A model generated the notes under the pieces. The model did not search any database. It was not told where the DNA came from and saw nothing but the letters and a program-made list of their open reading frames with translations. The position numbers were made by a program, and so were the translations under genes. Below, piece after piece: positions 8,150 through 41,888 of a DNA stretch of 64,000 nucleotides (position 1 is its first letter; every line of letters begins with the position of its first letter). The DNA is from Edaphochlamys debaryana (taxonomy: Eukaryota > Chlorophyta > Chlorophyceae > Chlamydomonadales), in contig JAEHOE010000089.1 in the NCBI GenBank assembly GCA_016858145.1, forward strand, positions 496,001-560,000. Direction: 5' to 3'.

Positions 8150-8592
8150 CCCGCCTCCGCCGCTGCCCTGGCCGCCTCCGCCGCGGCCCTGGTCGCCTCC
8201 GCCGCTGCCCTGGCCGCCTCCGCCGCTGCCCTGGCCGCCTCCGCCGCTGCCCTGGCCGCCTCCGCCGCTGCCTGAGGGTCTACGCCGCTGCCTTGGCCGC
8301 CTCCGCCGCTGCCCTGGCCGCCTCCGCCGCGGCCCTGGCCGCCTCCGCCGCTGCCTGAGGGTCTACGCCGCTGCCCTGGCCGCCTCCGCCGCGGCCCTGG
8401 CCGCCTCCGCCGCTGCCTTGGCTGCCTCCGCCGCTGCCCTGGCCGCCTCCGCCGCTGCCTGAGGGTCTACGCCGCTGCCTTGGCCGCCTCCGCCGCTGCC
8501 TTGGCCGCCTCCGCCGCTGCCCTGGCCGCCTCCGCCGCTGCCTTGGCCGCCTCCGCCGCTGCCTTGGCCGCCTCCGCCGCTGCCTGAGGGTC
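8150..8592. repeat. 21-bp minisatellite with nested frame-shifting junctions
   Basis: Tandem 21-bp units (consensus GCCGCTGCCCTGGCCGCCTCC on the + strand, encoding AAAEAA(K/R) on the minus strand) are broken by a junction CCTGAGGGTCTAC. Junctions start at 8271, 8354, 8458 and 8583. The spacings of 83, 104 and 125 bp equal 4, 5 and 6 units minus 1 bp, so each junction shifts the reading frame by one. The proximal junction reads GTCCAC instead of GTCTAC and stays open in the gene; the next one gives TAG. Confidence 0.85.
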
Positions 8593-15339: not shown

Positions 15340-18300
15340 TTAGCTGCTCCACCGCGTCTTGGCACCCAGGCTCTTGTCGCCAAACTCGTTGTTGATTGGG
15401 TCGTAGTACTGCTGGCAGCTCTTCCATACGAACTTGGAGTACGCCGCGTACTTGTTGTCGTACTGGGTGCCCATGGCCTGGGGGGGATGGATGGGGGGTG
15501 GGGGGCACGGCGAGGTTGAGCAAGCAGTTGATGGAGTATCAGTACACCCGCCCTGGCCTCGAGCGGTTGCAGGGAGGTGACGCCATCATCCCCGCCCCCC
15601 GCTGCCCACCTGCTCCAAGCTCGTGACCGAGCCGTCGGGGTGCAGCCGGGCCCAGGGCGTACGGCACTCGGTCCCCTCGCAGTAGCCCATGACCTGTGTG
15701 TGTGTGTGGGGGGGGGGGGGGGGTGGAGGGGGTGGAGGGGGCTTCAGCCTCGCCCTGTTGCGCCACGCCAGCCAGCTCGATGTCATTCCTTCGTGCCCCC
15801 TCCCACCCCGGGAGGGGGGCTTGGGCTCGCTGGCTGTCGCTCCTTCTCTCCTTCCTCTCTCCCTTACTCCGAAAATCACGCCCCTCCGCCCCCCCCCCAA
15901 AGGGCCCACCTGCAGCAGGGCGTCCAGGCGGTTGATCAGGCGCTGCTGGTTGGGGTTGAGGCCCGCCTCCATCAGGTTGTTGATCTGTGGTGGTTGGTGG
16001 TTGGGAGTTGGGTGGTTGAGTGGGTCATCGCAAGAGTATAGTCGATCGTTGACCCCCCACCACTCCTCCCCCGTGACACATGCCGCCTGGCTCCGCCCCC
16101 CTCCCAACCCCCCCTTCCCAGCTCCCCCTCCCCCCCTCACCTCCCCCGGGTCGGCCCCAAGATCGAACAGCTCCTTGAAGTTGGTGGTGGTGGGCCACAC
16201 GCACCTGACAGGGGGGTGGGGAGGAAGGGGTGCGTGAGAGGACGGCGGAGGCGAGAACAACGGGGGGGCGAGGCCAAGAGATCGGGGCCCAAGGGACAAG
16301 GCGCAGTCCCAACTGGACCCCCTCCCCGGAGCCAACCCCCGGACCCACTCCAGCCTCACCAAATGGTGTACTTCCAGCACGTCTCTGTGCGGCCGTCGCC
16401 TGTGAGCGTGTAGTTGGTGCAGATGCGCACCGAGCGGTAGTCCTTGCGGGACAGGTCCTTGGACAGGGAGTTGATCCACATCTCCAGGGGCAGCCTGGGA
16501 GGTTCATGGGAGCACAGACCCCGTATGGTGAGAGGCAGCGGCACGCCTTCCGCCTCGTGGACCCTCCGGACGACTCGATTACTCAAATGAGCCTGGTGAA
16601 TCTTCCAAGATCCTGTTCGTCCTCGCCAAGCCAAGTCCCCGACCCCTCCTCTCGCTCCCCTTCTCCCCCGAGCCCCTCGTAGCACAAAGAGCCCCCGATA
16701 GGCACACCGCCTCTAGCAAGGCTCACATCTGGCGCAGGATGCCCGAGGTGGACGTCCAGTGCTTGGGGTTGGCGGGCACCGCGGGCGGCGGCGCCTGGGC
16801 GGGGGCGGCCTGGGCGATGCGGTCCAGGGGGAGCGGGATGCCGTCGAAGTGGTCGGGGGGCTGCAGGGGGGGGAGGGGGGGCGGGACGGGGAGGGAGAGA
16901 CGGGGGAGTGTGGTCAGCGGCGGCGTCAGAGGGTGTCCGGATGCGAGCCACGAGCCACGAGCAAGGACCGGCAGAGGCAGCATGACACAAGAGGAACCCG
17001 CTCGAAACACGGCAGTGCGAGTGCTAGACACACTTCAGTGCGAGTGCTAGAGCATGTCAGTGCGAGTCCGCTCACGTTTCCGCCCGCCAGCTTGACGAGC
17101 GTGGCCGTGACGTCCACCATGGTGGCCATGTACGGGTGTACGACACCCTGGGGGATGCCGGGGCCTCGCATGTAGAAGGGCACGCGCACGTCCTCCTCGT
17201 ACGGCAGCGTCTTGCCTGGGGTCGAAAGGGGGGTAGTGGAGGAGGCGGGTTGAGGTTTGAAGGGTCGTGGGACTCCCGGCCCTCAAGCAGCACCCTCCAC
17301 GCACTCTGTGCACCCTCCTCTCTGCAGGCGGCAGCGGTGCAAAACAGCGCCCGGGGCTTACCCTTGGACAGCGCGTGGTTGCCGAGGTGGTATCCGTTGT
17401 CCGAGGTGTAGATGATGTAGGTGTTGTCCAGGATGCCCTCAGCCTCCAACTTGTTCACTGGGGGGGTAAAGGGAATGGAGGAACGTTGAGGAGGTAGGTG
17501 GCACTGCCGCGGCTATGGCCCCCGTCCCCACGCCTCATCCCCACGACTCATCCGCCCCAAACCCGCAAGCAACTCACATACCCAATGCCTACCCATCCAC
17601 CCATGCCCCCAGCGCCCTCAATCGTTTACCCACCGCCTCGATCATGTCCCAACCAGTCCCAAGCGACTCATGCGCCCCAACCGCCCCATGAGCGCCCACT
17701 TGGCGCGTGGCATGACTCATCCTGACTCACCCACGGCCTCAATCATGTCGTCCACCGACATGAGCGACTCGAGGCGGCGCGCGTAGTGGTTGTCGATGCC
17801 GCGGGGCGCAAACGAGTTGTCGGGGCCCACGCCCAGGATGTTGGAAAGCGGCACGTCCCAGTTGGAGAGCTGGGGGTTTGGGGTTTGGGGTTTGGGTTTA
17901 GGGTTTAGGGAGGCGGACGGGGATAAGGGAATGTGTAGGGGAGGACAGGGTGAGAGGAGAGAGGCTTGGGGGTGAGGGAGAGAGTCGAGGAGGCAGGGTG
18001 GCGGACAGCGTGGAAGCTGCCCGACCCACGTGGCCGGAAGACCAACGCCACGCCGCCCTTGCCTCCCCACGCCGCCCTTGCCTCCCCCCTCCTCCCGCCA
18101 CCCCCCGATCCCCTGGCAGACCCGGAGGCGCTCACCCGCGGGACCTGCGCCTTGTCCCACTTGCCCCGGTACTTGGGAGAGGGCACGGGGGGCACGCACG
18201 AGCCACCGTCCTCCGCGCCCTTGGGGCAGGCCGTGTGGCAGGCGGCGGGGTTGATCTGCGGTTGGCGGTTGGTGGTCGCAGGGTGAGAGTGAGCACCGCC

Positions 18301-19799
18301 GCTTGGCAGAATGGGATGTGACGGCACCCCAACCCCCGCCGCACGCCGTCAACAGGAGGGCCTCGCATGCCGTACAGTCCATATCGTACGATCAGTGCCG
18401 TACCTGCAGGTAGAAGGGCGCGCCGGCCTTGACGGCGTCGTCAATGTAACCGACGGCGCGGTCAGAGATGGTGTCGGTCTGGTAGGCGTTACGGAACGAG
18501 TCCAGCTTCTTGCATTGCGGCATGAAGTCAAAGTCAATGTAGTCGTACACGGTCTTGTCGGTCAACGGGTCAAAAAGGTCCCAGCCCTTGGGGCAGTTGG
18601 CCGTGTCACCCACGGGCTGCAGCGGGCAGCAGGAGGGCAGGGCTGGCGTCAGGGAAGAGCCTCCGTGTGATCCTGCTTCACCCCGTTCCGCTCCGCCCCG
18701 GCCCCAACCCCGACCCCGCCGTCAGCCCGCCCTCTTCGTCAGCCCGACCCGGCCCTTAGTCATCATCTCACCACGTCGAACAGGTTGATGAACTTGCCCG
18801 TGAAGTACGAGCGGTAGCCCGCGGCCTTCAGGTAGTTGGGCAGCCAGTCGGCGTCCAGGTTCAGACGCTGGAACTTGCCAAAGCCGCCTGGCAAGGGGAT
18901 GGGAAGGAAAGTCAGAGGATGGGGCCGTGAGGTGGTGGCGTCAGGGCACACTTCAACCCGGCTGTCTCCCAGCCTCTGATCCGACCAGTCATCTACAGTG
19001 CACGGCCGTCTCCCATCCCTCCCCCCTCAACCTGGCTGTCACCAATCCCTTTTGCCCCTACCCCCACCCCCCTGTCCCCCTGTCCCCCATCCCTCCGGCC
19101 CCCCTCGTTCTCACCCTGGGGCGCCTGGTTGGAGGTGACGTTGTGGTTGTGCACGAACTTGCCCGTCAGCAGCGATACGCGCGAGGGGCAGCAGAGCGAC
19201 GAGGTGACGACGAACTGGGGGAGGTGCAGTCCCTTGTCGCCGATGAGGGCGTTGAGCTTGGGCATGTAGGCGCGGTGCGTGGAGTTGAGGAGGTAGTCCT
19301 GGTCATCAGTCATGATGAGGATGATGTTGGGGGGCGACCCGGGGGGCGGGCGCGGGTTGGAGGAGGGGGAGGGCTTGGGAGAGGGAGACGGCGAGGGGGA
19401 GGGGGAGGGGCTGGGAGAGGGAGACGGCGAGGGGGAGGGGGACGGGGAAGGGGAGGAGGCTGGAGGCGGGGAGTCCCGCTCCGCCTGGAGGGGGATCGGC
19501 GGGGAAGGGGGCACGGCCTGGTTCTTCCGGGGCGGCCGGGTGGGGAACGAGGGGCGGAACGGGGGCCGAGTGGGTCTCCGAGGTGGCCTGGCCCTGCCCT
19601 TAGTTGGCGAGGGGTCGGCCTCGGGGGATGGCGACGGTGAAGGCGAGGGGGATGGGGAGGGGCTGGGCGACTGCTTCATAGGCGGCGGGCGAGGCGGTGA
19701 CCTCTTTCGCCGCTGAGCCTCCGCCATCCCCAGGCATGATACTAGTAGGAGCGTAACTAGCGCGCCGAGCGCGGCTCTCCGCGCTGTTCTCCCGTCCAT
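15340..19799 (-). CDS. Sulfatase 1: secreted sulfatase with N-terminal (SP)n wall-type stalk
   Basis: Thirteen exons: 19799-19115, 18887-18772, 18616-18404, 18255-18136, 17869-17731, 17457-17362, 17215-17076, 16860-16727, 16494-16360, 16204-16141, 15984-15910, 15693-15610 and 15477-15340, giving 712 aa. All phases fit. Residues 1-28 are a signal peptide (hydrophobic GALVTLLLVSCLGMA). Residues ~30-155 are two (SP)n tracts and basic Pro-rich sequence, as in hydroxyproline-rich wall glycoproteins. The sulfatase domain starts NIILIMTDDQDY (metal-binding DDQ). The signature CCPSRVSLLTGK follows at residues 203-214; Cys203 should become formylglycine. TSDNGYHLGNH is the second metal-binding motif. 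The enzyme should hydrolyse sulfate esters outside the cell, with wall or matrix polysaccharide a plausible target; the exact substrate is unknown. The last four intron positions partly match sulfatase 2 at 29.9-41.9 kb. Confidence 0.9.
15818..15890 (+). repeat. Dispersed intronic repeat, subfamily I, copy in sulfatase 1 intron
   Basis: GGGCTCGCTGGCTGTCGCTC followed by a pyrimidine-rich stretch and CTCCGAAAATCACGCC matches 1215-1300. It lies antisense to the host gene, near the 5' donor of the intron between exons 11 and 12. Confidence 0.7.
17872..17910 (+). repeat. Short telomere-like tract in sulfatase 1 intron
   Basis: Repeats of GGGTTT(G) grade into GGGTTTAGGGTTTAGGG on the + strand, directly beside the exon 5 acceptor of the minus-strand gene. 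The last units match plant-type TTTAGGG telomere repeats. There are too few to call a telomere relic with certainty. Confidence 0.55.
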
Positions 19800-26100: not shown

Positions 26101-29039
26101 TAACGTGGCTCCGTGTCACGGCTGCTTTGCAATGCAATGGCTGCCTGCAGAGGCGTGCAGAGGCGTGGAGAGGTGTGGAGAGGTGTGGAGAGGCGTGGAG
26201 AGGTGTGGAGAGGCGTGGAGAGGTGTGGAGAGGCGTGGAGAGGTGTGGAGAGGCGTGGAGAGGTGTGGAGAGTGCCCCGCGCGGGTAGTCATACCCTGCG
26301 CGACAGCCTGGCCCCAGAGCCTGCCCCCGGCCCAGAGCCTGCGCCAACAGCGGCTGCCCCCTCTCCACGGCCGTTACGCTAGCTGTGCTGGATCCTACCT
26401 GGGAGGGGGGCGGCGTGCCGACATACTGTGGCGGGGGTGGAGGGGTGGGAGGGAGCGCGTGATCACGGGCATGGTACAGGGTCGGGGAGTATATCACAAC
26501 GGTGGCCACACGCGCGGCGCTTGCCTCGGCACTATCTTGGCACTCGAGACGGACCCATACATCATGTCCACTGTATCATCCCATCCAGTCCCCGTGCCGT
26601 ACCTTGGAGTAGATATCGTTGGCGAAGTCGGGCGCGAGCGCCAACCGCTCGCTCGCCAGCTCGTCCAATCCGGCCTTGTCGAAGGGCTTGCGGCCGAGCA
26701 GCAGTACGGCAGGGTCGTCACGGCCCTCGAACCTGACAGGGGGGGGCGAAGGATCGGGGGATAAGGGGTAAGGGGGAATGAGAGGAGAGGAGAGGAGAGG
26801 AGAGGAGAGGAGAGGAGAGGAGAGGAGGGGATGCGCACGTCATTGGGGCCGATCGGTCCTCAACAACCAGGTCACTTCCTAGCTCACAGCTTCTGACCCC
26901 AAGTCCAAACCCACCGTCACGGGCCCCCCCACCCCCCCACACACATGCCGCCACCCCCCCCACCCACCCCCACACATGCCGCCACCCCCCCCACCCCCCC
27001 ACACACATGCCGCCACCCCCCCCCCCCAACCCCCACACATGCCGCCACCCCCCCCCCCACCCGCCCACACACATGCCGCCCACCCCCCCCACCCCCCCCA
27101 CACACATGCCGCCACCCCCCCCCACCCCCCCCCCCCCCCCACATGCCGCCACCCCCCCCCACCCGCCCACCACACATGCCGCCACCCCCCCCACCCGCCC
27201 ACACACATGCCGCCACCCCCCCCACCCCCCCACACACATGCCGCCACCCCCCCCCACCCCCCCCACACACATGCCGCCACCCCCCCCCACCCACCCCCAC
27301 ACATGCCGCCACCCCCCCCCACCCGCCCCACACACATGCCGCCACCCCCCCCCACCCCGCCCACACACATGCCGCCACCCCCCCCCCACCCGCCCACACA
27401 CATGCCGCCAACCCCCCCACCCCCCCACACACATGCCGCCACCCCCCCCCACCCCCCCCACACACATGCCGCCACCCCCCCCCACCCGCCCACACACATG
27501 CCGCCACCCCCCCCCACCCGCCCACACACATGCCGCCACCCCCCCCACCCGCCCACACACATGCCGCCACCCCCCCCACCCCCCCACGGTCTGATGCAGC
27601 GCCCCTGACCGCCGGTGCCTCCGGCCTTTTCCGCCTCCTCCCCTCCCCTTTTCCCCCTCCTCCCCTCCCCCCACCTGCCCAGCAGAGCCACGGTCTTGTG
27701 CAGCGAGTCCTCCCCCAGCACCTCGGTGACCTGACAGGGCAGGGGGGGGAGGAGGAGGGGAAGGGAGGAGGCCCAGGCGTGTGTGTGACGCAAGGGGTAA
27801 TCTGCCAGGGCTGCGAGGGCTGCGAGGGCCCCCAGGGGGGAGTAGGCTCCCCACCCCTCGGACAAGGCACACGGAGGGGAGGCGGGGTACGAGTATATGA
27901 CCGGGGCTACGAAGGCCGCGTGGGCCCAGGCGGCGAGTTCAGGCTCCTCACGGCCCACGGGAAACCCATTGGGGATGACAGGCAGCTCCCGCCCAGCAGC
28001 ATCGGGCCGAAGGCAACCCATATCACCGCTTGTGCTTTTTGGTGCCTTTGGGTGCCTTTGGGTGCCTTTGCACCAACCCACGCTACCCCCCGACTGGCCG
28101 TCGACCCTTCCTCACCAAGCCCCCCCCCCTCTGTTTGGAGGTTTGGATGTTCTGAGGGATACCACTGCCTGGCCTCCCCCTGCGACTATCATAGGGTCAG
28201 CACACCCCCTCGCCTTGTGCCCCTGGTGCCCCATCGACTGGCCGTCGCCCTACCCCCCATCAACCGCCCCCCCCCCCCTCCGCTTGAAGAGATGCCGCTG
28301 CCGGGCCTCCCCTGCCTGCCACAACCCCGCGACTTGCGGCGGCCTGCCTTGCGACATGCACACGTGACAGTGCGGCTGCCTGGGAACCTCGCCCCGGCCC
28401 CCCCGGGATCCCCTGCCCCCCAGACCCCCCACCGCCACCCCCCCAGGCCTCCCCGGACGCACGCCGCCCCCACCCTTCCCCCCGCTCCGACCCACATCAC
28501 CCAGCCTTCTGGGTTTGCTTTACTCGCCAGCTACATACCGGTAGGGTCCAACCCACATCAGAGAGCGCCGGCCCCGGATGGGCGCAATTCGGTATGCTCC
28601 CTGCCCGCTAGAAACTGGGATGTGGCTTTGCGTGCTGCAATGGTCGGCTGGCGGGCAGGACCCGTGCTATCGACACGATTCACTTCGGCCCGCTCCCGCT
28701 CCTCCTCTGCCCCCCCTCTCCCCCTCCTTCCCCCCTCATCCTTCATCAAGGAGGCCCGTTGAGCCCAGGCCAGGGCACCACAGCGTCTGCCTTTGCTTTC
28801 CGTCGCACACACAGGGCTTCTTCCTTTATCGATGACGTCAGGTGCGTGGAGGACTCCGGGTGGATGATGGGCGGGAGGGGCCAAGGAGGGACGTGTGCGA
28901 CCCGTGACGACCCGTGCCCCCACCCCTCCCGCGCCCGAGCCCGCCCCCCCCAACCCGCGCCACCCACCGTGAAGCCTTTCAGGCTGGACAGCCTGCCATG
29001 CACAGCTGCCTCAGCACCCTCGGTCGGCCCACTCGCCAT
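23194..29039 (-). CDS. DCPS: Scavenger mRNA-decapping enzyme DcpS (m7GpppX diphosphatase, HIT family)
   Basis: Ten exons: 29039-28968, 27730-27675, 26732-26603, 25968-25891, 25739-25638, 25365-25291, 24667-24542, 24113-23957, 23684-23648 and 23266-23194, giving 301 aa with consistent phases. DcpS hydrolyses the cap left after 3'-5' mRNA decay. The C-terminal HIT domain carries LRVFLHYPPSYYHLHVHF, whose HxHxH contains the catalytic His; other conserved blocks are IYPATDKH, LQWVYNILEKK, ADRLIFEDPNP and HRRDLGCMRDL. The protein is close to the usual family length, with a short N-terminus. The last intron has a GC donor (CAG|GCGAGT at 23647). Introns 2, 3 and 6 are swollen by minisatellites. The gene is divergent from sulfatase 2, with 874 bp between start codons. 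Exon 1 (24 codons) is the least certain part; it fits in phase and in KGF-like context. Confidence 0.9.
23771..23940. repeat. Tandem duplication with an echo of the DcpS exon 8 end
   Basis: CCTCAACCGTGTCAAAACAC occurs at 23795 and 23908, a period of about 113 bp. Between the copies, 23864-23911 is a diverged copy of the exon 8 end (LLDDAIG on the minus strand) followed by GTGGGC as a potential donor. The real exon end is 23957. Confidence 0.65.
24626..25010. repeat. ~101-bp tandem repeat built from the DcpS exon 7 acceptor
   Basis: Four copies start at 24626, 24726, 24828 and 24929. Each contains, on the minus strand, an acceptor CCCTGACAG followed by the first 14 codons of exon 7 (DQVQPEQLYCLALV), then a purine/pyrimidine-biased spacer. 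Copies 1 and 3 share GTAGAG and copies 2 and 4 share GTACAG, which suggests a dimer was duplicated. Only the copy at 24626-24667 continues into the full exon. Confidence 0.8.
26150..26275. repeat. Purine-rich minisatellite in DcpS intron 3
   Basis: About six tandem copies of a 20-bp unit GAGGCGTGGAGAGGTGTGGA lie in the intron between exons 3 and 4. No other function is visible. Confidence 0.85.
26780..26828. repeat. (GAGAG)n simple repeat in DcpS intron 2
   Basis: A GAGAG pentamer tract of about 45 bp, close to the exon 3 acceptor on the minus strand, where it forms part of the pyrimidine tract. Confidence 0.85.
26930..27595. repeat. ~31-bp minisatellite in DcpS intron 2 (about 20 copies)
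   Basis: About 20 copies of ACACATGCCGCC followed by a C-rich spacer of variable length. The array reads as long open frames on both strands (His/Pro-rich one way, Gly/Trp-rich the other) because it has no stops; these frames have no coding character. It makes up most of the 942-bp intron. Confidence 0.9.
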
Positions 29040-29913: not shown

Positions 29914-32900
29914 ATGCGATGTTCACGAGCAAGTATAGGCGCCTGCGCCGGCCGCTGTGCGGTATCATCACCTGCTGAGCGCCGGCGATGTCTACGTACG
30001 ATAGGATATGGCTCTCCGTGGCTAGCTCTGTGGCTGGCCGTCATCCTCTGTGCTTGGCGAGCCGCGTCTGCCTCGGCGTTTCCCAAGCCGAACTTCCTCA
30101 TAATCATGACGGTAAGCTGGACGGCACAGTGCGGGTTCAATGGCAGTTTTGCGTTGTCGGTTGGCAAGGGCAGCTGCCGGGGGTTGGCGCGAAGGGCGGG
30201 TTAGGAGCCATGCCGAGCATGCCGCATGCCCCGGCCTCGGCCCCTGTCCGCCGCTCTAGCCAGCAATATCAGCCCAGGCAGCAGCATCAACTCTGGACAT
30301 ACGCGCTGCATACAGAAAAGCAGCGCAGGAACTGCCCGCTCAGCCCGGAACCATAGCACTGCTGTCCGTCTGTAGTGCCAGCTGACCGCCCGGACCACCC
30401 CATCAGTAGCCCGGCCTGTCTCGATTGAGCCCAGCCCAAGGGTTGGCATTGGGAGATGCGACAAGCAGCCTACCGACCGGCCCCTTCAAGCACCGAGGGG
30501 CCGACGGGGGGTAGGACTGGGGCGAAGGGCGCCCTTTGAGCTTCCCCTGGGGCTCAGCCCCTGGCCGCGCCTCGACCGTGCCAGCCAGGCCCCAGCGAGG
30601 CCAATATGAGGCCCGGTGGACTGGGCCCCGTGAGGACTCACTTCCCACCGGGCCCCTTGAGCGCTCTCCGGGAAGCGATCAGCTCCTTCGGCGCCTTGCT
30701 CTGGGGCCTCCCAGGCTGCTGCCGGTCGGCTGTGTGGGATGTGTTCACGCACAGCCGCGGCGGAAGGGGCGGAGCAGCACATCCGGCCAGAGGGGCAGCG
30801 AGGGGCGTCTCTGGCGGCAGGGTCAGCCTCGAAGAGCCAGGCCGGAGCAGAGGGCGGTGCGTGCAGCGCCGGCATGCGGTTGGGGGGCAGACTCGCCAGC
30901 CGGGCGGGGCCGCTGTGGAACCGCCAATCCTGGCGTGGTGGCGGTGCCCCGGGGCGGACCGCAGTGGTCTGCCCGGCGAAGCAGCAACGCCCCTGGCAGG
31001 CGGCCGGAGTAGCGGCCCTCAGCCCTCGACCCAGTGCGTGAGGACCGGCCGCGGCGGCAGCATGGGCGCACAGCTGCCGCGGGCGGAGAGCGGCGGCCCC
31101 GAGGAGGGGATGGCGTGGGGGGCGGCCCCTCAGCTTCGTCCCACGGAGCAGAGGGCAGGCCAGGGAGCAGCCTGGCGTAGGCCGACCGTGGGCTGTGGTT
31201 GGCATTAGCCGACCCTTCCGCCCAGGGCCCCCCGCCGCCCGCCGGCAGTCAGCTGAGCGCCCCCCGCATCCCAGTACTGCCCCCCGCACTGCCACCCTCC
31301 GCGCGCCAGCCCCCGGTCCTCAGCCTCGGCCCGGGCAACGCCAAGCGCGGGAGCGGGGTGCGGCGCCCCGTCATACCGCGGCTCTCCAGCCGGCAGCCCG
31401 CAGCCCACAGCCCGCCAGCCACCCGGTCTCTGCCTTGCCCAGCCCCGTCGGGCTGGCTCCGGCAGCCGGCTGCACGGCGGTCCCCCTCGCACGCCTGCGC
31501 CTGAGCCACGGCCGGTACAAACCGTACGACCGGTACAGGCTTCGGGCCGCCATGCCAGCTGCTGGGCTTGCGGTGGCCTCAGCAGCGCACAGCCGCCAGC
31601 CTCTCCTGCTAGCCCAGATTCCCCTGCGGCACCGCTTGAGCCCAGGCCGTTGGCTGGTTTCGGCCGTTTTGGTCTTGGCGATCCCGTACAAACCGTACGA
31701 CCCCGTACTTGCCGTACGCAGGACGACCAGGACTACATGCTCAACTCCACGCACCCGCGGTACATGCCCAACATGAACGCACTCATCGCGGAGCAGGGGC
31801 TGCAGGTGGGGTTGTGTGTGTGCTGACCCTGATTAGTGATTGCTCAAGTACACCCAAAGCAGCAAAGAGCGAGAACTGTGTGTGTGCGTGGGGGGGGGGG
31901 GGGGGGGGGGGTCGGTTGGCGGGGGTTTGGGCGACGGGGGTTGGGCAAGAATGGGTGGGGGGGTGGGAGACAGGTTTTGGACGGGCTGCATGCAAGGGTC
32001 GTGGGGGCAGCAGCTCAAGTGCGGGGGGGGGAGGTCATGCGGCCTGGAGCTGGACGGGCAAGGAGGGCTGGGAGGGTAGGTGTGCCCCCATGTGGGTCGG
32101 GGGTCGTTGACGGGTGGGCCGCCTTCTATCCTCGTCTCCAACCTCATCCTCCTCCCCCTCCCCACTCCACCACCACCTCACCCCCCACAGCTCCGCCAGT
32201 TCCTGGTCCCCACCGCCGCCTGCTGCCCCGCCCGCTCCATCCTCATGACGGGGCGCTACGTGCACAACAACAACGTCACCTCCAACATCGAGCCGCACGG
32301 TGGGGGGGGGGCGGGGGCATGTGGGGGCGGGCGGGCTCATGTCAGCGGACCGCCAGCGGATCGTCAGCGCCAGGCAGGCATGCGGAAAGCGGGAAGGGCG
32401 CCCAGCTCGCATCCCCTCCTCGGGTGGACAGTTCGCAGGCGCTGGGCTGTCGTGCCCCGTGCACGGAGACTGACGGTTGCATACCGGTACTGATACATTC
32501 TCCGAAACGCGCATCCCCCCGTCTACGACCACGCCCCCAGGCTCCTTCTGGAAGTTCATGGCGAACAACTACGATGACGACTACTTCCCCACGTGGCTCC
32601 AGGTACGACACACCTGTCGTACCGCACTAAAACGCTGTCGTACAGATCCGTGAACGGAGTGGGGGCATGGTTGGGGTGTGCGACTGTGGGCCATGCATGC
32701 ATCACCCCCCACGCCCCTTCCCCGGCCTCCCCTCCTCCCTCCTCCCAGCGCGCGGGATACCAGACGTACCACGTGGGCAAGTTCCTCAACGCCATGGATC
32801 TAGATGATAGCAGATTCAGGTATGGCAGGATGGGGATGGCGGCGCAGAAGTGTACGGCAGAATTCCATCGAGCCGGGTCCCGTCTTGCCGGCAGCTGCCC

Positions 32901-35900
32901 ACCACCCCTCCCCCCGCCTGCCCTCCCCCACCCCCTGTCAGGTGCCCCAAGGGCTGGGACTCTTGGGACGCCCTGGTGGAGCCGTACGTGTACATGTACT
33001 ACACGCCCGCCTTTAGTAAGAACTGCGGACCGGTCAAGGTGCGTGCGGCCGCGCATGGGCTGATCTGAGCGTCGCGTCAGCGGAGGACGTCAGCGAGGGA
33101 GGGAGGGGGGGGGGGCTGTCAGTGTCCCAGGCCCCAGAATGACAAACACTCCCCCCTCACCCCCTCACAGTACCACGAGAACGAGTACTCGACCGACCTC
33201 ATCTCCGCCAAGGCGGACGCGGGGCTGCGGGAGGCGGTGGCCAAGGGGCAGGGCGCGGGGCCGGGGGGCGCATACAAGCCCTTCTACATGCAGGCAAGGA
33301 GGGGGGAGGGGGGTGGGGGAGAGAAAGGAAGGGAGGGGAGGGGAAGGGAAGGGGGGTTGAGGGCCTGCTCGGTACTGTGCGTGTTTTTCTTCCCCTCAGC
33401 GACTGGCCCACATCCTTCCCTTCCTTCATGCCCCTCGACCATCCCTGGCCCCGCCTCCCCCCCCTCCAGGTGACCCCCATCGCGCCCCACACCCAGTGCG
33501 ACATGGTCAACGATAGGGGCGGCTGCGGCTTCCCGGTGCCGGCGGCGAGGCACAAGGACATCTTTGCGGGTGGGGCTGATGGGGGGGCGGGGGCGGGGGG
33601 GGGGGGGGGGAGGGGGCGGCGGGACCGCAGTTTGGGAATAGGAGAATGTGGTGGGAGCCGCATGGAAAAAGATTTTGTGTGTCTGCTCGCCTTAAGTGCT
33701 GACACTTCTCTCCCTCCCCTCCCCCCCTTCCCCTCTTACGTAAGACGCCCTGCTGCCCCTCAACCCCAACTTCGACGTCCCCGCCTGGCCCCAGCTGGGT
33801 CTGGACGACGAGGTCAACAACCCCGGGGGTGAGCGGTTGGGGTGGTTGTGCGGTTGGCGGTTGAGGTGGTTGGCGGTTGATGGCGCTCCGTGCCCCAGAC
33901 CCTGGTCCAACCCCACGTCACCACCCTCACCAATAAGCCCTGCAACTGTTTCTTCCACGCCTCCAACCAAACACAACCCCTGCCCACACACCCCTTCCCA
34001 TTCTCCCCTCTCCCCACACCCATCCCCCCTGCAGCCGTCCAGAAGAACTACCTGGCTCGCATCCGCTCGGTGGCGGCGGTGGATGAGATGGTGGCACGGC
34101 TGAGTGAGCGATGGGGGGCGGCAAGGGGCGGGGGGATAGGGGAGAGACTGGGTCAGCGTCCAGGCCTGAGGCCACGTGGGCGCAAGGGGGGCAGATGCAG
34201 GGGGAGGAGGGGGTTGAACGTAGGACAGCGTCACGATCGCGCCCGCCACAGGGGTTACGCCCTGCCAGACTCTCGCACCTCCCAACGATTCCACTCGCGT
34301 CCCACGAATCCCACCCCTAACGACGTCTCCCTTCCCTGCCCTTCCCTCTCCCCCTCCCCCCAGTCAACACGCTCCAGGAGCTGGGCCAGCTTGACAACAC
34401 CTACATCGTCTACACATCGGACAACGGGTACCAGCTGGGGAACCACGCGCAGGTGGGGGCTGGGGTGGGTGGGTGGGGAGGGTTGCTGGGAAGAGCGGGT
34501 TCGCTGTAGGCAGCGTTGGGCGAGGCGGGGGCTTTGCGGCGCTCCTGGGGGCCTCCCCCTCGTGGCTGACAGGGGCTTGGGGGGAGGAGAGGCAGTTAGG
34601 GTGTTCGGCGCAGTCAGTGTGGGGGTGACGCAGCCAGCACGTGAGCATGCCAACGTGGGCTGACGCGTCCCCTCTCCTCCATATCCCCCACACCCCCGCA
34701 GGCCAACGGCAAGCAGTTCCATTGGGAGGAGGTGGTGCGGGTGCCCTTCTACATCCGAGGTGAGGGATTGGGGGGGACGGGTGGTTCACGGTGCGCTGCG
34801 GAGCAATGCACGGGTTCGCCCGGGGGTGGCCCTGCCTCGACTGCCGGCTCTCCTCACCCCCCCCCCTCTCAAACCCCCCTCCCTCCCTTTCCATCCCCTC
34901 CCCTTACCCCTCCCCCCCTGTCAGGTCCCGGCATCCACCCCGGCATGGTGACCGACTGGCAGGCCAACACCGTGGACATCCCCGCGACCGTCATGCGGCT
35001 CACGGGGGCGGGCGTGCCGCCCATTGCCGACGGCACGCCCATCCCCTTTGAGGAGCTGCTCCCCTCCTTCGAGTACCCCTACACACTCACCCCCGTCGCA
35101 TGGCCCCCCATGCCATCCAAAGCCCCGCCCAGCGCCGCCTCGCGCGGCGGCCGGAACGGCCGCCGCCTGCTCGGATCTGGATCCTCCGCGTCTGGATCTG
35201 GGTCGGGGTCGGGATCTGGGTCGGAGGCTCGAACCGGGGGTTCTCGCAAGATGGGCGATGTGGTGCTTTTTGAGGACGACTTTGAGCTGCCCGACCTGCC
35301 TGGGCAGCCCGCGGGCCGGCGGCTGAAGCAGGTTGAGACGTTCAACTCCGGAATGCGAGAGATGTGGGTCTGGGTGGGGGTGGGGCGTCTGGGTGGGGGT
35401 GGTTGGGGGGGCGGGGCTAGCTGTAGGTGCGATTTGGAAGGGGGAGGTGCCATCGTGTGGTTGCATGCGAGGTTATGGGAAGGGGGAGGGGGGATACGGA
35501 TGCGGCGAAGGGGATGCCGTCGTGCGGGGGCAGGGTGGGACGGCCGCAGCCTAGGTCCGCCCCGGCTACCCGCGCAGACCCTTCCTCCCGGAGAAGGCAA
35601 CACAAGGCTGAGCGGGTCAAGCACCCTCCCCTGCCCCCCCCCCCCCCTTTGCCGCCTCCTCAGGGTGCCCATTGAGATGTGGGGCCACGCATGGGACCGC
35701 CGGATCAACATCAAGGACTACCGGGCCATCCGGATCTGTACGGGATATCTGGCCTTCAGCGACAGATCCGCCTACATGAGGTGAGATCACGTCCCCGTCA
35801 TCCTGCCCAACCAACTAGTCCGGTACCCGGCCTCTCACCCTCCACACTCCACCCACTCAGCTTTGTCTCTCGACTCCCTTTTCCCGTTCATCCTGTCAGG

Positions 35901-38900
35901 TCCTACATAAACGGCACGTTTGGGTGGGGCGACACCTTTTACGGCAGCGCCGCCCGCGCCTACGCCGGCCCGGGGCTGAACGGCGGCATCAACATGTACG
36001 ACTACAAGCGCCCCAGCCTGGCGGGCGCACAGGAGCCGTACGATCAGTACGGCGTGGCGGGCCACCGCCGCAGCACCGCCGAGGTGGGCCGGGGCGTGGG
36101 GGGCTGCAGAGGCGGGTGCGGGTCACTGGGATGGGTCCTTGTCGTCCCCCGGGCAGCAGGCCCTCTATCCTCTAGCCCTCTTACCCACACCTGCCCTACC
36201 AATACCGCCCCTCTTGACAAGCTCGGCACACACACACAGGCACTTTTCTCGGCCTTTACACGAGCAGCCCTGAACACACCCGTTGTAGCACCTGGCACCT
36301 GGTTATCGCGCATAAACCCGAGCATCTAAACACCCCCATGGTCCTCTCAGGAGGATGCGCGGGCCATGGAGCTGGAGATGGAGCGCCACGTGGAGCGCGT
36401 GTTCCAGGAGCTGCGCGCGCGCCGTACGGCGGCTGGATCTGGATCTGGATTTAAATCTGCCGCCGCAAAGCCCTCCAAGTCGTTCACCGTACGGCTGGAC
36501 ATGACGTACACGGAGGCTCTGGACGAGGACAGGTGCGAGGGGGCATGGGGACGAACGGGGCGGAAGCCCAATCGTCCACTCCACATCCCAAGCCTCTTCA
36601 GGGCACGCCCCACGTCCCCTTCCCCTGACCCCTCATCCGTCATCTGTGTCCCCGGCCGTACTGTGCGCCTGCCGTACAGGTGGGCCGAGCAGCAGGACGC
36701 GCTGTGCCTGTACCTGACGGTGGCCACGGGCGCGGGCTCGTGCGCCGCCGCCGCCTCCACGTGGGTGGCCCGAGACGGCCGCTCGGCCTCCCTGGCGGCG
36801 GCCCTGGGCGCCCCGGGGCAGGGGCTATCGGCCAGGGACTTTGAGCTGGCGGTGAGGGGGGGGGCGCGGGTGGGCTTGGGGTTGTGGGAGGGAGGTGGCA
36901 CCAAGGGACGGAGGTGGAAGGGGCGGGTCAAGGGGCTAGCAGGGGCTGGCGGGGCAGGCGGGGCTGGCGGGGCTGGCGGCGAGGGGAGTTTGATTCGCAT
37001 GGGTCAAGTGACAACTACGGGGGCAGCACACGCGGGCGGGGCTCTAGGCTCCAATGCGCGTGCGGCGGTGAGGTGGAGGTGGGTTGGGCCCCAGCGCTCG
37101 GGTGGCGCAAGTGGGCCCCTCCGCTGCGTCTCAAGCGTCTCATCTCATCCCCTTGATCCCTTGATCCTGACCCACAGGTGTACGACGCCGTACGCGACTT
37201 CCGCCAGTACGTCCCCGGCCGCCACATGACTCACTTCAACGTGGCGACACTGACCGCCGAGCTGGCGCTCGTCCCAACCGCCACCGCCGCCGCCGCTGAG
37301 TCAGCCGACGCGCCCGCCGACGGATCGCGGGTCCTTATTGGCACCAACCGCCGCCGCAGCCTGATCGAGTTCTCGGTTCTCGGATCCGAGAATCAGACTC
37401 AGCCCTCGGCCTCCCCATCCCCATCCCCCACCTCAGCACCCACCTACCCCCCGTCCTACGGACCCGCCTACCCCCCGGGTCCATATGGGTATGGCGCATA
37501 TCCTCCCCCCGCTTACGCCGCCCCCGCCTACCCGTCCCCGCCCGCCACCGAGCCAGCCACGTCATCGCCGCCGCCAGCCAGTACGACAGATGGTACGGAA
37601 GATGGCAGTGGAAAGGATGACGGGGTGATCTCGGGATCCGAACCGCGCAGCAGCGAGATCCCGGCTGAGGAGGCAGTCTCGCCAGCGCCCGGTTCGACGA
37701 AGGCCGGCAGTTCGGGCTACCCGCCGTACGACCCAGATCCGCCGTACAGCCCGGATCCGCCGCGGGAGCCCCCCTCGCCCCGGCCGCCCCCGCGGGGCCC
37801 GTCCCCGCCCCGGCCCCCGCCCCGCCACCCGCCCTCGCCCCGCCCTCCCCCGCGCCATCCCCCCTCACCCCGGCCGCCGCCGCGCAATCCGCCCTCGCCC
37901 CGGCCCTCGCCGCCCCTTCCCAGCCCCAAGCCGCCGTCCCCGTCTCTTCCGCCGCGCCCCCCAGTGCCCACGCCGCCGCCCGCGCCGCCGCTGCGCCGCC
38001 AGCTGTACCTCACCTTCTCGTACGACACTCCCATGACGCCGGCGAGGTGAGATGCAGCCCTGAGGTCATGCATTCTGCCCTCCGATCGCTACATGCTTGA
38101 AAGCGGAAGAAGGACGGGGTATACTTATGGTTGACATAGCCGACAGGCTCATTTCACACGTGCCCTTTCCAACCCCCATCCGACCAACCCCCTGACCGCA
38201 ACGCCCCTCTGCCCCCCTAACCTTCCGGGCTCGCCGGCCGCCGCCTTATCGTTTCCCGCTCGAGATCGTAACCCGAACCTTACCCCACGTCACCTCACCC
38301 CACCCCCCAACCCCAACCCCCAGGTTCACGGAGCAGCAGGGCAACACCTGCCTCAACCTGCTCCTCTCCACCGCCTCCGCCTCCTGCGTGCCCCTGGCAG
38401 CGGGCCAGCCGGGCGGCCCCTCGCTCGCGAGTGATGGCAGCTCGGGCTCCTTCTCCGTCATACTCACACAGGTGTGTGCGCGCGTGCAGGAGTCAGCGCT
38501 GTGCTGATCAGTGACTTACGCATCAGTGGCTGACTGGTAGAAGTGGCGCGTACTTGTAACTGCTTAAGCTTTAGGTCCTGCGCCGTACCACTGACCGTGA
38601 CCCCTCCTGGCGTGTCCTCGCTCGTCACCGCAGGCCCTGTCCGTGTCGGCTGCGGTGTGGCAGGAGCGGGTGGGTTGGGGTTTGGGGGGGGGACTGCGGA
38701 CCGGACTGACCACGGAGTAATTCATGCTGAAAAGAGCTGCGGACGGGACGGAGGAAGGCGTGCAGGAAGCAGCCTGTGCCGCTTGGCCCTGAAGGTCCTC
38801 AAGTGATGGCAGGCCGACAGCCCCATGCTGACCGTGCCTGCCTGCCGTACCCCCTGCAGATCCTGGATCTTCAGAACAACACGGACACGTACCTACCAGA

Positions 38901-41888
38901 TTCGTACAAGTCCCTGTTTGGGATCACAGCCCTGGCGGTCTCGTGGCCCTCCCCGCCGCCTCGGCCGCCGCCCTCGCCGCCGCGCCCGCCATCGCCGCCT
39001 GTCCCCATAGCATTGCTGACCGTCACCCTGCCCATCAAGCTCATCATCTTCCCTGCCGTACTGGCGGGAATCGTTGATGCGCCATCGACGTACATGGCGG
39101 TGCTGGCGGCCGTGATCTGCCCCAAGATCATGGCAGATCCCGAGATCAAGGCGTTGGCGGTTAGCTGCTCCGTGACTGACCTGGAGCTGCGCGACTTCCC
39201 GGCGGTCGGGTACTGGGGCTTAGTAACGGACGACATTACTAAGGTGGCCGATCTCAAGGATGCAGTCGAGCCGGTAGGTAACGTGCGCAGCAAAGGGGTC
39301 CAGGGGCCAGCAGCTGTGGGTTTTGGGAGAGAGGGAGGGGAAAACTATAAGACGGAGTAGTATCCTTATCTGGCCGTCATGTCTGTCTTGACTTCCCCTT
39401 GCTTCCCGCTCCACCCCTTCCTATCTTGCAGATTCGTCGCCAGCCCCAGCCCCTGTTCGAGGGCCTGAACAACGTGCTGGGAATCGCCGGCGTCGCTTCT
39501 ACCTACATTCCCCCGCCGCGGCCGCCGTTCCCGCCTCGCCCGCCCTCGCCGCCGCCCCCCTTCCCCAGCCCGCCCTCGCCCGCTCCCCCCACGCCCCCCG
39601 AGCCCCCGTCCCCGCGCCCGCCCCGCCCCCCGCCGCCCTCCCCCGAGCCCCCCTCGCCGCGGCCCCCCGGCTACCCGCCCCACACGCCCCCGCCCTCACC
39701 CCCTGAGCCCCCCGTCACCCCGCTCCCACCCGACCTCAAGCAACCCCGTGTGCCCGGCTGGAAGGCCCCCCCCGCCTCCCTCTCCCCGGCCCAGCCCCCG
39801 GCCCCCGCCCAGGCCCCCGGCCCCGCCCCCGCGCCCGCCCTCACCCCGCCCCAAGCCGCCCACCCCGCCGCGGCCGCCCGCGCCGCCCTCCCCCGCGCCC
39901 AGCCCCCCCGCGCCGCCGATCGTACTGAACGTACACATCGCCTCCAACTACTACCTGCCAACCAGCGAACTGACGTACCAGAGCCAGCTCGGCAGCACGT
40001 GCCTGTTTGTGAAGTACGCCGTATCGGTGAGGCAGCGAATGGGGTCGGGTCGACGCCCAGGGCGGCGTGCGAGGGGGGCGAGGGGGGCTGCGGATGGGCT
40101 CGCGTGCGTCCCTTTCGGCAGGTACCGGTACCGAAGGTGTGCGTTTGCAGCCCAACAACTCCGCCCCGTAGCAGCGGCATGCGCGCCAAGCTCCATCCTT
40201 TCTCGCCTCCCTTCCTGACGGCCTTGCGCGGAAGCCCCTCCGCCCCCCTCCCTCACCTCCTCACTCATCCCTCCCCCCTTCTTGCCTCCCCCCCTCCCCT
40301 CTTGCCCCCCCCCCAGGCCTCTGACTGTGTGGCCACCTCCCTAGAGGACCCCGCCAACGGCACCTTCTCGGTCTTCACGCTCACGCTCACGCAGAGCATG
40401 ACGCTGTCGGCGGCCGAGTTCGCGCGATACGTGAGCGATGTCGGGTTTAGGCTGACGAGCGATGTATCATGGCTTGTCTATCACATCATAGAATGGCTTC
40501 CCGACGCAGTCTTGCTCTGCGCTGTTAGTATTGCGACTGCCTCTTGACTTTGTTTCCTTGTGTGCGCAGGTCGCGGGCTTTGTCGATAACCCCGTCATCC
40601 TCAAGTCCAGCGGCTACATGTCGCTGTACATGATTGAGAGCCTCAGCGTCACCTGGCCCCCGCCCCCGCCCTCGCCGCCGGCCCCGCCGAACCCGCCGAA
40701 CCCGCCGCCCCAGCCCCCCTCGCCGCCGTCGCCGCCCCCGATCCCTCCGGGCCCCCCGCCCTCCCCCGAGCCGCCTTCGCCGGGGCCGCCGCCCAGCCCG
40801 CCCAGCCCCCCGCGGCCTCCGATGTTCCCGCCGCCGGACCCGCCGCCGCCCAGCCCACCGCCGCCGGACCCGCCACCGCCGTCGCCCCCGCCCCCGGCCC
40901 CCCCCGCCGCCCAGCCCACCTCCGCCCAGCCCGCCTAACCCGCCGCCGCCCAGCCCCTCGCCGCCGCCCCCGCGGCCGCCTGAGAAGCGTGACGCAAAGG
41001 TGGGCTTTGGGGAGGTTACAGAGGGTCATAGAAGGCCGCGGTCGCAGAAGCAGGGCACAGGAGGTTTCAGTGTAATGACTAATCTGGTATCTCGCCGTCC
41101 ATGGGTTCCCCCAACCCCAGATCGGCACGTGCTACAAGTACGTGTCATGGTGCATGGATGGCTTCCGGGAGCTGTACGACCTCGTCCTTGATCCGTACGA
41201 GCTGGACAACAAGTGAGATCTCACGACATGACGTGCTTGATCTTTTGGCGTTGCTTGCATGCAGCGGTAGTGAGGTTGCCCCGAGGGCGTCTAGGTCGCT
41301 GTGGCGGGGTCTCCGATCAGCCCATGATCCACGGAGGGCGTCTAGGGCGGACCCACGGCGCACGGCGCAAACCCTCCCCCGCTTACTCACCCCTACCCCC
41401 CTCAGGGCCACCACCGCCCCCCCGGCCCTGGTGGACCGTCTGGACGCGCTCATGACCGCCGTGGGCTACTGCCGGGGGGGGCTGTGCGACAACCCCTACC
41501 AGATCCTGCACCCGGACGGAGCAGTCACCAGCTTCGAGGAGGTGGGCCCTGGGGGCGAGACGTGCGGGGCGGGGCGGGGTGCTCTGGGGGCTCTCTATTG
41601 GCGGGGGCTGACCGGGCTGAGGCTGGGCTGAGGTCCTGGGGGGTGGGTGGGGTGGCGGGGGACCTGGCGATGGTTGGCGTGAGACGCGGCTGGCCCGGCT
41701 TCTGGCTTACTGCCGTACCTCCCCCCGTGTTCACGTGTGCCGTACAGGCCATGGACCCCAAGTACGACGCGCTGTACGCGGGTCTCAAGAAGTTCCGGTT
41801 CGTGCGCTGCGCCAACAGCTACAACCTGGCCAACGAGGACAACTGGTACCTCTCGGCGGGGCACCCCACCGCCACGGGCCGCCGCTGA
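29914..41888 (+). CDS. Sulfatase 2: sulfatase interrupted by Pro-rich stalks and four repeated modules
   Basis: Twenty-seven exons: 29914-30111, 31722-31805, 32191-32299, 32541-32602, 32749-32819, 32942-33038, 33171-33293, 33470-33569, 33745-33828, 34035-34103, 34364-34452, 34702-34759, 34925-35363, 35664-35780, 35900-36083, 36351-36532, 36680-36851, 37178-38046, 38324-38471, 38634-38669, 38860-39273, 39432-40026, 40317-40430, 40570-40999, 41121-41212, 41406-41541 and 41748-41888; about 1,736 aa. A hydrophobic segment (LALWLAVILCAW) precedes FLIIMTDDQDY. CCPARSILMTGR at residues 105-116 is the formylglycine signature and TSDNGYQLGNH the metal site. After IRICTGYLAFSDRSAYMR the fold is left for ~1,050 residues of PPSPRPP stalks and modules, then resumes at CYKYVSWCMDGFRELYDL. 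Exons 22 and 24 each hold one extra base in a C8 run. The exon 7 donor is GC. The start may instead be 29866. Probably a matrix-borne sulfatase; substrate unknown. Confidence 0.85.
30112..31721 (+). other. Large first intron of sulfatase 2
   Basis: A 1.6-kb GT-AG intron, by far the largest in this gene. It is GC-rich and open in several frames by composition, but none of those frames shows a domain or a codon pattern like the real exons. It may hold regulatory sequence; nothing specific is identifiable. Confidence 0.55.
31819..31846 (+). repeat. Short intronic repeat shared with SixA-like gene
   Basis: GTGCTGACCCTGATTAGTGA and the following TTGCT are identical to 12914-12940 in intron 3 of the SixA-like gene. 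Both copies lie in the sense strand, within the first 110 bp of an intron. Confidence 0.7.
38225..38275 (+). repeat. Dispersed intronic repeat, subfamily II, copy in sulfatase 2 intron 18
   Basis: GGGCTCGCCGGCCGCCGCCT then TATCGTTTCCCGCTCG, located in the 3' half of the intron 38047-38323. It matches 13385-13440 and the reverse strand of 57796-57845. Confidence 0.75.
39763..39775 (+). other. Apparent +1 frameshift at C8 run in sulfatase 2 exon 22
   Basis: The Pro-rich frame before GGCCCCCCCCGCC and the Pro-rich frame after it differ by one base. Reading the run as seven C joins KAPPPPSPRPSP smoothly and restores phase to the exon end. Every other exon of the gene is in phase. A sequencing error, a strain polymorphism or a real mutation are all possible. 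Confidence 0.75.
40896..40908 (+). other. Apparent +1 frameshift at C8 run in sulfatase 2 exon 24
   Basis: An identical GGCCCCCCCCGCC context. Read literally, translation stops at TAA 40936-40938, before the last sulfatase block. With seven C, the PPSPPP register continues to EKRDAK and the donor at 41000. Confidence 0.75.

Follow-up and report, generated by a model that had tools for sequence, protein, structure and literature searches.

A volvocine sulfatase predicted to carry a roughly 1,000-residue proline-rich insert in a hairpin turn of its C-terminal sheet

We analyzed a stretch of 64,000 nucleotides from the green alga Edaphochlamys debaryana (contig JAEHOE010000089.1, positions 496,001 to 560,000; hereafter the window, whose own numbering is used throughout) and describe one of its genes, sulfatase 2, on the + strand. 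On the evidence of sequence comparison and structure models, we conclude that sulfatase 2 is a single gene, that its order of parts recurs in the gene models of five volvocine species, that its insert sits in a turn between adjacent strands, and that the fold is predicted to close in the Chlamydomonas reinhardtii ortholog. A single enzyme with a looped-out insert is, in our judgment, almost certainly the correct architecture. With less confidence, though on balance we favor it, we read the protein as a family S1 sulfatase grouped with GNS, animal SULF, and the volvocine arylsulfatases, in which a very long loop of the C-terminal sheet serves as a matrix anchor or spacer.

Results

Gene structure and reading frame

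The coding sequence begins with an ATG at 29914 and its stop codon ends at 41888, exactly where an earlier note made from the sequence alone had placed the gene. It comprises 27 exons and 1,736 residues once a single C is left out of both of its runs of eight C residues (C8 runs); reading of splice sites gave 26 exons, and a 12-residue exon taken from the NCBI model brought the count to 27. All introns are GT-AG, bar one GC-AG. The parts are listed below, all on the + strand; m1 to m4 are the modules, site A is the linker before the I-E-x-W strand, and site B is the turn between the YRAIRIC and CYKYVSWC strands.

29914..30111, +: exon 1, with the start codon, a signal-peptide-like segment (by eye), and the first strand, PKPNFLIIMT; C. 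schloesseri HYH02_006053 has a similar start
31722..35363, +: exons 2-13, sulfatase catalytic core (PF00884, motifs) and a Ser/Gly-rich linker (site A, residues ~424-528)
35664..35780, +: exon 14, strands VPIEMW and DYRAIRICT, the last blocks common to sulfatase 1 (equivalent strands in the sister-paralog model)
35900..36083, +: exon 15, start of the loop, like the shorter loop of sister paralogs up to ~GPGLNGG (comparison with five sisters)
36351..40999, +: exons 16-24, inserted cassette, residues 629-1614 (986 amino acids [aa]), phase 0 at both ends (intron phases)
36480..37273, +: module m1, residues 672-778, introns included, two Cys
37397..37996, +: stalk 1, residues 820-1019, 40% Pro
37997..38952, +: module m2, residues 1020-1128, introns included, two Cys
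38634..38669, +: exon 20, the 12 residues ALSVSAAVWQER, within m2; present in HYH03_013450 and aligned in the C. schloesseri ortholog
38953..39006, +: stalk 2, residues 1129-1146, 72% Pro
39007..39509, +: module m3, residues 1147-1261, intron included, two Cys, with no detectable kinship to m1, m2, or m4
39510..39918, +: stalk 3, residues 1262-1397, 61% Pro, containing the first C8 run
39766..39773, +: first C8 run, frame change
39919..40662, +: module m4, residues 1398-1502, introns included, two Cys
40663..40999, +: stalk 4, residues 1503-1614, 69% Pro, containing the second C8 run
40898..40905, +: second C8 run, frame change
41121..41888, +: exons 25-27, the C-terminal block (C-block) IGTCYKYVSWC...RELYDLVLDPYELDN...stop, completing the sulfatase C-terminal subdomain (the C. 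reinhardtii equivalent is placed in the sulfatase fold)

The gene matches the NCBI protein HYH03_013450, a model of 1,483 residues that begins at exon 2 (exon 1 was added here) and omits parts of three stalks (1, 3, and 4); two of the omitted parts surround the C8 runs. As the earlier note had stated, those runs are the only frame breaks found. Modules m1 to m4 and the C-block are free of stops in frame 0, and the two other forward frames each hold one to seven; the linker at 601-671 (71 residues) is less telling, with 0 and 1 stops in those two frames. Third-position GC is 0.77 to 0.93 in all 13 regions measured, and intron GC is 0.67. These stop counts, the third-position GC, and the same order unbroken in the independent C. 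schloesseri genome place the continuity of the reading frame above chance.

The E. debaryana copy could be a recent pseudogene that has taken two indels while its orthologs stayed functional, since both frame changes are present in the sequence of an assembly that had Illumina-read correction, according to the portion of the genome report consulted (PMC8226300). However, both breaks lie in C8 runs, and the splice sites, catalytic motifs, and third-position GC after each break are all intact. Homopolymer runs are a common error class of long-read assemblies, and we regard recent decay as highly improbable.

Sulfatase identity and fold

Judged from its sequence, sulfatase 2 is a secreted-type, formylglycine-dependent sulfatase (family S1) with predicted activity. 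PF00884 matches residues 59-410 with 148.7 bits, against a cut-off of 25, and the protein has the motifs DDQD (67-70), CCPAR (105-109), GKFLN (161-165), APH (253-255), SDNG (351-354), and GKQFHWEE (365-372). The C-x-P-x-R signature and the metal and active-site residues, whose roles we take to be those usual for such motifs, are present, and across 32 aligned related sulfatases the matching columns vary little or not at all. Searched with NCBIfam, sulfatase 2 gave only weak sulfatase/esterase models, all under cut-off. SULF proteins match it at ~1e-45 in a protein search, and its placement in SulfAtlas subfamily S1_6 is tentative; the tree described below was built without GNS. In the sections consulted of the two papers concerned, SulfAtlas subfamily S1_6 holds GNS, SULF1/2, and the Volvox carteri arylsulfatase Q10723 (PMC5066984), and the C. 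reinhardtii and V. carteri sulfatases cluster with SULF and GNS (PMC4659905).

The structure model of the C. reinhardtii ortholog has a complete sulfatase fold, spanning 5g2v residues 27-520 in a fold search, and closes it as a single fold across a shortened insert, with the C-block packed in it. Closure was thus seen in a model that lacks the stalks and the strand CYKYVVW, the E. debaryana protein being too long for modelling. Fold searches were uninformative on the modules, as the sulfatase fold fills the list.

As a separate observation, the formylglycine-generating family PF03781 has one weak match in the E. debaryana genome (26.4 bits, contig C67), against 20 sulfatase-domain exon matches. 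SUMF was likewise not found in C. reinhardtii or V. carteri, as reported in the section consulted of PMC4659905.

The insertion site

In sulfatase 2, 1,064 residues separate YRAIRIC (547-553) from CYKYVSWC (from 1618), whereas in sulfatase 1, a neighbor in the window, the same two points (YRSVRIC and CWKYTIWC...FKELFDL) are only 13 residues apart. The similarity between the two proteins ends and resumes where the earlier note had said. Its insertion of about 1,050 residues holds as an interruption; its extent needs correction, because the first ~40 loop residues are common to sister paralogs (P0112, P0113, P0114, P0117, and P0121), so that the insertion proper starts later and the new part is the 986-residue cassette. 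The site lies between strands DYRAIRICT and TCYKYVSWC, which the model of a sister paralog shows to be joined by a beta-hairpin turn. Together with the packing of the C-block in the C. reinhardtii model, across its shortened insert, this supports the proposal that the insertion occupies a surface loop and lets the fold close. Among 22 volvocine and other green-algal proteins, site B could be measured in 21, where it has 13 to 102 residues. In sulfatase 2 the loop runs from a sister-like segment (to ~590-600) through a charged, helix-like stretch (628-652, by eye) to m1, stalk 1, m2, stalk 2, m3, stalk 3, m4, and stalk 4.

The cassette of exons 16-24 is entered and left at phase 0, which makes the module array symmetric; phase 0 being common in this gene, the symmetry is only suggestive of the route of acquisition. 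We considered a homologous intron at the 3' cassette edge and rejected it, as the intron of the sister loop is in phase 1 and lies 8 codons before TCYKY. An hhalign comparison of the ortholog set with the sister set aligned them only to the loop start, with no second alignment reported for the C-block.

The same phases would permit a splicing switch, in which exons 16-24 are skipped and exon 25 follows exon 15 in frame, yielding a compact enzyme with a sister-type loop, so that the cell could make both a free and an anchored form. Both the start of exon 16 and the end of exon 24 are in phase 0, as this requires. Phase-0 introns are nevertheless common in the gene, several of them within the cassette, which makes the symmetry a weak argument, and a skip from exon 14 to exon 25 would shift the frame. 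We consider such a switch improbable.

Modules and stalks

The earlier note had counted four repeated modules. Each of m1 to m4 has exactly two cysteines, and local alignment against 200 shuffles each relates three of them to one another (z of 12.6 for m1-m2, 20.0 for m2-m4, and 4.8 for m1-m4); the fourth, m3, does not belong with them by this measure (z of -0.4 to 2.4). The four stalks are 18 to 200 residues long, 40 to 72% Pro, with 2 to 15 Ser-Pro (SP) pairs each and PPPP confined to stalks 3 and 4. Such long Pro/Ser-rich stretches of SP and PPPP type agree with the composition of hydroxyproline-rich glycoprotein (HRGP) rods. At the polyproline rise of 0.31 nm per residue, each stalk would by calculation span ~6 to 62 nm.

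We tried a pherophorin origin for the modules and rejected it, as neither the whole protein nor five single modules matched PF12499, which as a positive control was found at at least 127 places in the E. debaryana genome (150 of 171 candidates scored). The weak single-module Pfam matches MARF1_LOTUS (17.8 bits) and Catalase_C (13.7 bits) were below cut-offs and were dropped. Genome searches with m2 and m4 returned only sulfatase 2's own exons (3 of 3 places for each), and all four matches of a protein search with the modules fall in the sulfatase 2 clade (7,996 candidates sharing most words scored). Because that search had a length limit, outside which C. schloesseri HYH02_006053 itself falls, and preselected its candidates, longer or much shorter carriers may exist.

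Orthologs and evolution

The earlier note had proposed looking for the same order in other volvocine genomes, and it is there: complete in Chlamydomonas schloesseri, partial in C. reinhardtii and two species of Volvox. HYH02_006053 of C. schloesseri (1,859 aa) has all parts with no frame break in an independently assembled genome. The C. reinhardtii protein XP_001702487.1 (825 aa), presumably an early gene model, includes the sulfatase and the C-block together with pieces of each of the four modules, and omits the stalks. The Volvox reticuliferus model has m1, m2, and m4 and ends within m4; the partial Volvox africanus model has m1 and m2; both are without m3. Thus m1 and m2 occur in the models of all five species (as pieces in C. 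reinhardtii) and m4 in four of the five, four of the five orthologous gene models being cut short or without stalks. In C. schloesseri, HYH02_006037 (the sulfatase 1 ortholog), the sulfatase 2 ortholog, and the sister HYH02_006009 have close gene numbers and lie on contigs of equal reported size (1,969,436 bases), which suggests that this neighborhood is conserved.

These models bear on whether two or three genes have been misread as one, or the order is an assembly artefact. HRGP-type DNA is hard to assemble, the frame changes twice, and the NCBI model drops stalk stretches around both changes as if they were introns. Against this, the order is complete in the independently assembled C. schloesseri genome, the C. 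reinhardtii and Volvox models agree as far as they reach, and, in the structure model, the C-block is required to complete the fold. The probability of such an error seems to us close to negligible.

In a tree of catalytic cores, four sulfatase 2 orthologs fall together in a single clade (100/100). Its sister (98/92) is a volvocine group whose site-B loops, measured in all five members, have 68, 71, 80, 101, and 102 residues. The sulfatase 1 group (10 tree rows) stands apart from the sulfatase 2 clade; its loops have 13, 13, 15, 18, and 42 residues in five measured rows (the last from Astrephomene), and four more counted from the sequences have 12 to 13. The 35 sequences were hand-picked from those found, with P0221 left out, and the cores were trimmed by a simple rule, by which five rows are without the start motif and several extend beyond the core. 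The likely path is from a tight turn to a loop of ~70 to 100 residues and then to a cassette of ~1,000.

Among the sisters themselves, contig positions C12:1456217-1468121 hold at least three copies close together. The site-B loop is split by a phase-1 intron in the copy at C12:1461093-1461535 and matches without interruption in the other two.

Neighboring loci

15340..19799, -: sulfatase 1, 13 exons, 712 aa, with a Pro-rich stalk near the N terminus and a site-B loop of 13 residues

The Pro/Ser-rich stalk of sulfatase 1 has ~125 residues and lies between a signal-like segment and the catalytic domain (by eye). No identical protein is among the best 120 of 2,998 matches, and sulfatase 1 may be missing from the NCBI gene set. 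Two gene models, Tetrabaena P0005 and E. debaryana HYH03_009405 (P0006), read as two sulfatases in a row, either fused neighbors or true tandem enzymes. The window also has minisatellites at 26924-27587 (~20 copies of a 31- to 33-base unit) and 8151-8584 (~21 copies of 21 bases); tRNA and Rfam searches of its 64,000 nucleotides gave no match.

Discussion

Function of the loop

We think it probable, by a modest margin, that the loop of sulfatase 2 functions as an anchor or spacer, a proposal based on its composition, the signal-like N terminus, and the analogy with SULF. As the chain departs from and returns to the same hairpin, the stalks and modules could project as a closed loop tens of nanometers long with the active site intact. 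The Pro-rich rods are probably hydroxylated and glycosylated, and with the two-Cys modules they would hold and space the enzyme in a hydroxyproline-rich cell wall or extracellular matrix. The loop may also present a sulfated matrix glycoprotein to the enzyme. In both respects it would resemble the hydrophilic domain (HD) of animal SULFs, which gives substrate recognition and cell-surface retention; sulfatase 2 would then act like a SULF without being one.

Several findings weigh against this proposal. The E. debaryana copy has two frame breaks, and the model in which the fold closes lacks the stalks and the strand CYKYVVW, so that its insert is shorter than that of the actual protein. No match between the modules and a known matrix domain was found, and their carriers in the search made were found only in the sulfatase 2 clade. 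Module pieces mostly have predicted local distance difference test scores (pLDDT) of <50 in the C. reinhardtii model, the one model holding them, so the modules are putative as folded domains. Finally, module identity is 26 to 50%, far below that of the enzyme part, and a tolerated spacer would fit this too.

Passive expansion in a permissive turn, which would leave an ordinary secreted, sulfate-scavenging arylsulfatase whose stalks and modules do little, is the rival that we take most seriously, unlikely as we hold it to be. The turn and the adjacent linker vary in length across paralogs (13 to 102 residues at site B; a Pro-rich site A in P0007, P0008, P0009, and P0013), m3 is absent from both Volvox models, and the modules are less conserved than the enzyme and modelled without confidence. 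Yet three related two-Cys modules recur in the same order, m1 and m2 in five species and m4 in four, which is not what one would expect of a loop of low complexity that drifts.

If the anchor or spacer reading is extended to its full scope, sulfatase 2 would be a dual-role protein: a matrix-remodelling sulfatase built into the volvocine wall or matrix through a closed loop of ~1,000 residues, which was gained as an exon cassette at a hairpin turn and resembles the hydrophilic domain of animal SULFs by convergence. Enzyme-plus-anchor sulfatases would then have arisen independently in two lineages with elaborate extracellular matrices. We offer this broader proposal tentatively, as one that may well fail. 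If true, the volvocine algae gained an internal, matrix-type arm within the sulfatase branch of SULF1/2 and at a neighboring turn, and this second independent case would mark the C-terminal sheet as the site at which sulfatases can acquire an arm that binds substrate or matrix. The orthologs in C. reinhardtii and two Volvox species would offer a genetic handle on in-place editing of matrix sulfation, and the incomplete models of four of the five orthologs show how gene models hide such proteins.

Comparison with known systems

The earlier note knew of no described sulfatase with this architecture, and we likewise found none described in the literature searched, which covered few subscription journals; the section consulted of PMC4659905 makes no mention of it. 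The principle of an inserted arm does have a precedent in the animal SULFs, whose corresponding sheet is also interrupted by a large insertion, at the preceding turn. Like sulfatase 2, SULF1 and SULF2 (S1_6) are S1 sulfatases, probably of the same branch, with a catalytic domain, a long central insertion, and a homologous C-terminal block. In SULF, however, the basic HD (PF12548) forms the insertion and precedes the NNTYxCLRT strand, whereas the insertion of sulfatase 2 is downstream of the equivalent strand, consists of Pro-rich stalks and two-Cys modules, and is accompanied by a ~100-residue linker farther upstream, at site A. In the C-terminal alignment (five SULF rows), NNTYxCLRT shares its columns with NNTYKAMR from fungal sulfatases and DYRSVRIC from sulfatase 1; the HD lies upstream of it. 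We placed the strand that precedes the HD by eye, as hhalign of the pre-HD piece (8 of the 10 SULF rows) reached the DG motif only. PF12548 has no match in sulfatase 2 at E values up to 1, and the animal SULF matches do carry it. A sequence search of the PDB with sulfatase 1 gave no protein named as an animal SULF among the best 60 of 75 matches. In the part consulted of PMC3890690, the HD is dispensable for arylsulfatase activity and required for heparan sulfate recognition and cell-surface localization.

Among green-algal proteins, the volvocine sisters (CHLRE_10g430200, HYH02_006009, HYH03_004257/004258, and C. incerta HXX76_003654) are the nearest relatives in the tree and have an enlarged loop at the same turn, but one of 68 to 102 residues without modules or Pro-rich stalks. 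A second set (CHLRE_02g085850, HYH03_012011, HYH02_007813, and V. africanus VaNZ11_003273) also has the core and C-terminal sheet separated by Pro-rich sequence in one predicted protein; there, however, the main insertion precedes the I-E-x-W strand and is of low complexity, with no repeated modules by eye, and site B has 13 to 59 residues. The Chlamydomonas and Volvox arylsulfatases belong to what is probably the same sulfatase branch, in the sections consulted of PMC5066984 and PMC4659905, whereas Tetrabaena P0005, which is related to the volvocine arylsulfatases, has a site-B turn of a few residues. Pherophorins and other volvocine HRGPs resemble the insert in that Pro-rich rods separate Cys-containing modules, the layout usual for these proteins, but the modules of sulfatase 2 are without PF12499, a family abundant in the E. 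debaryana genome. We conclude that sulfatase 2 is neither a SULF nor a pherophorin; it is a variant of the plan in which a sulfatase carries an inserted arm.
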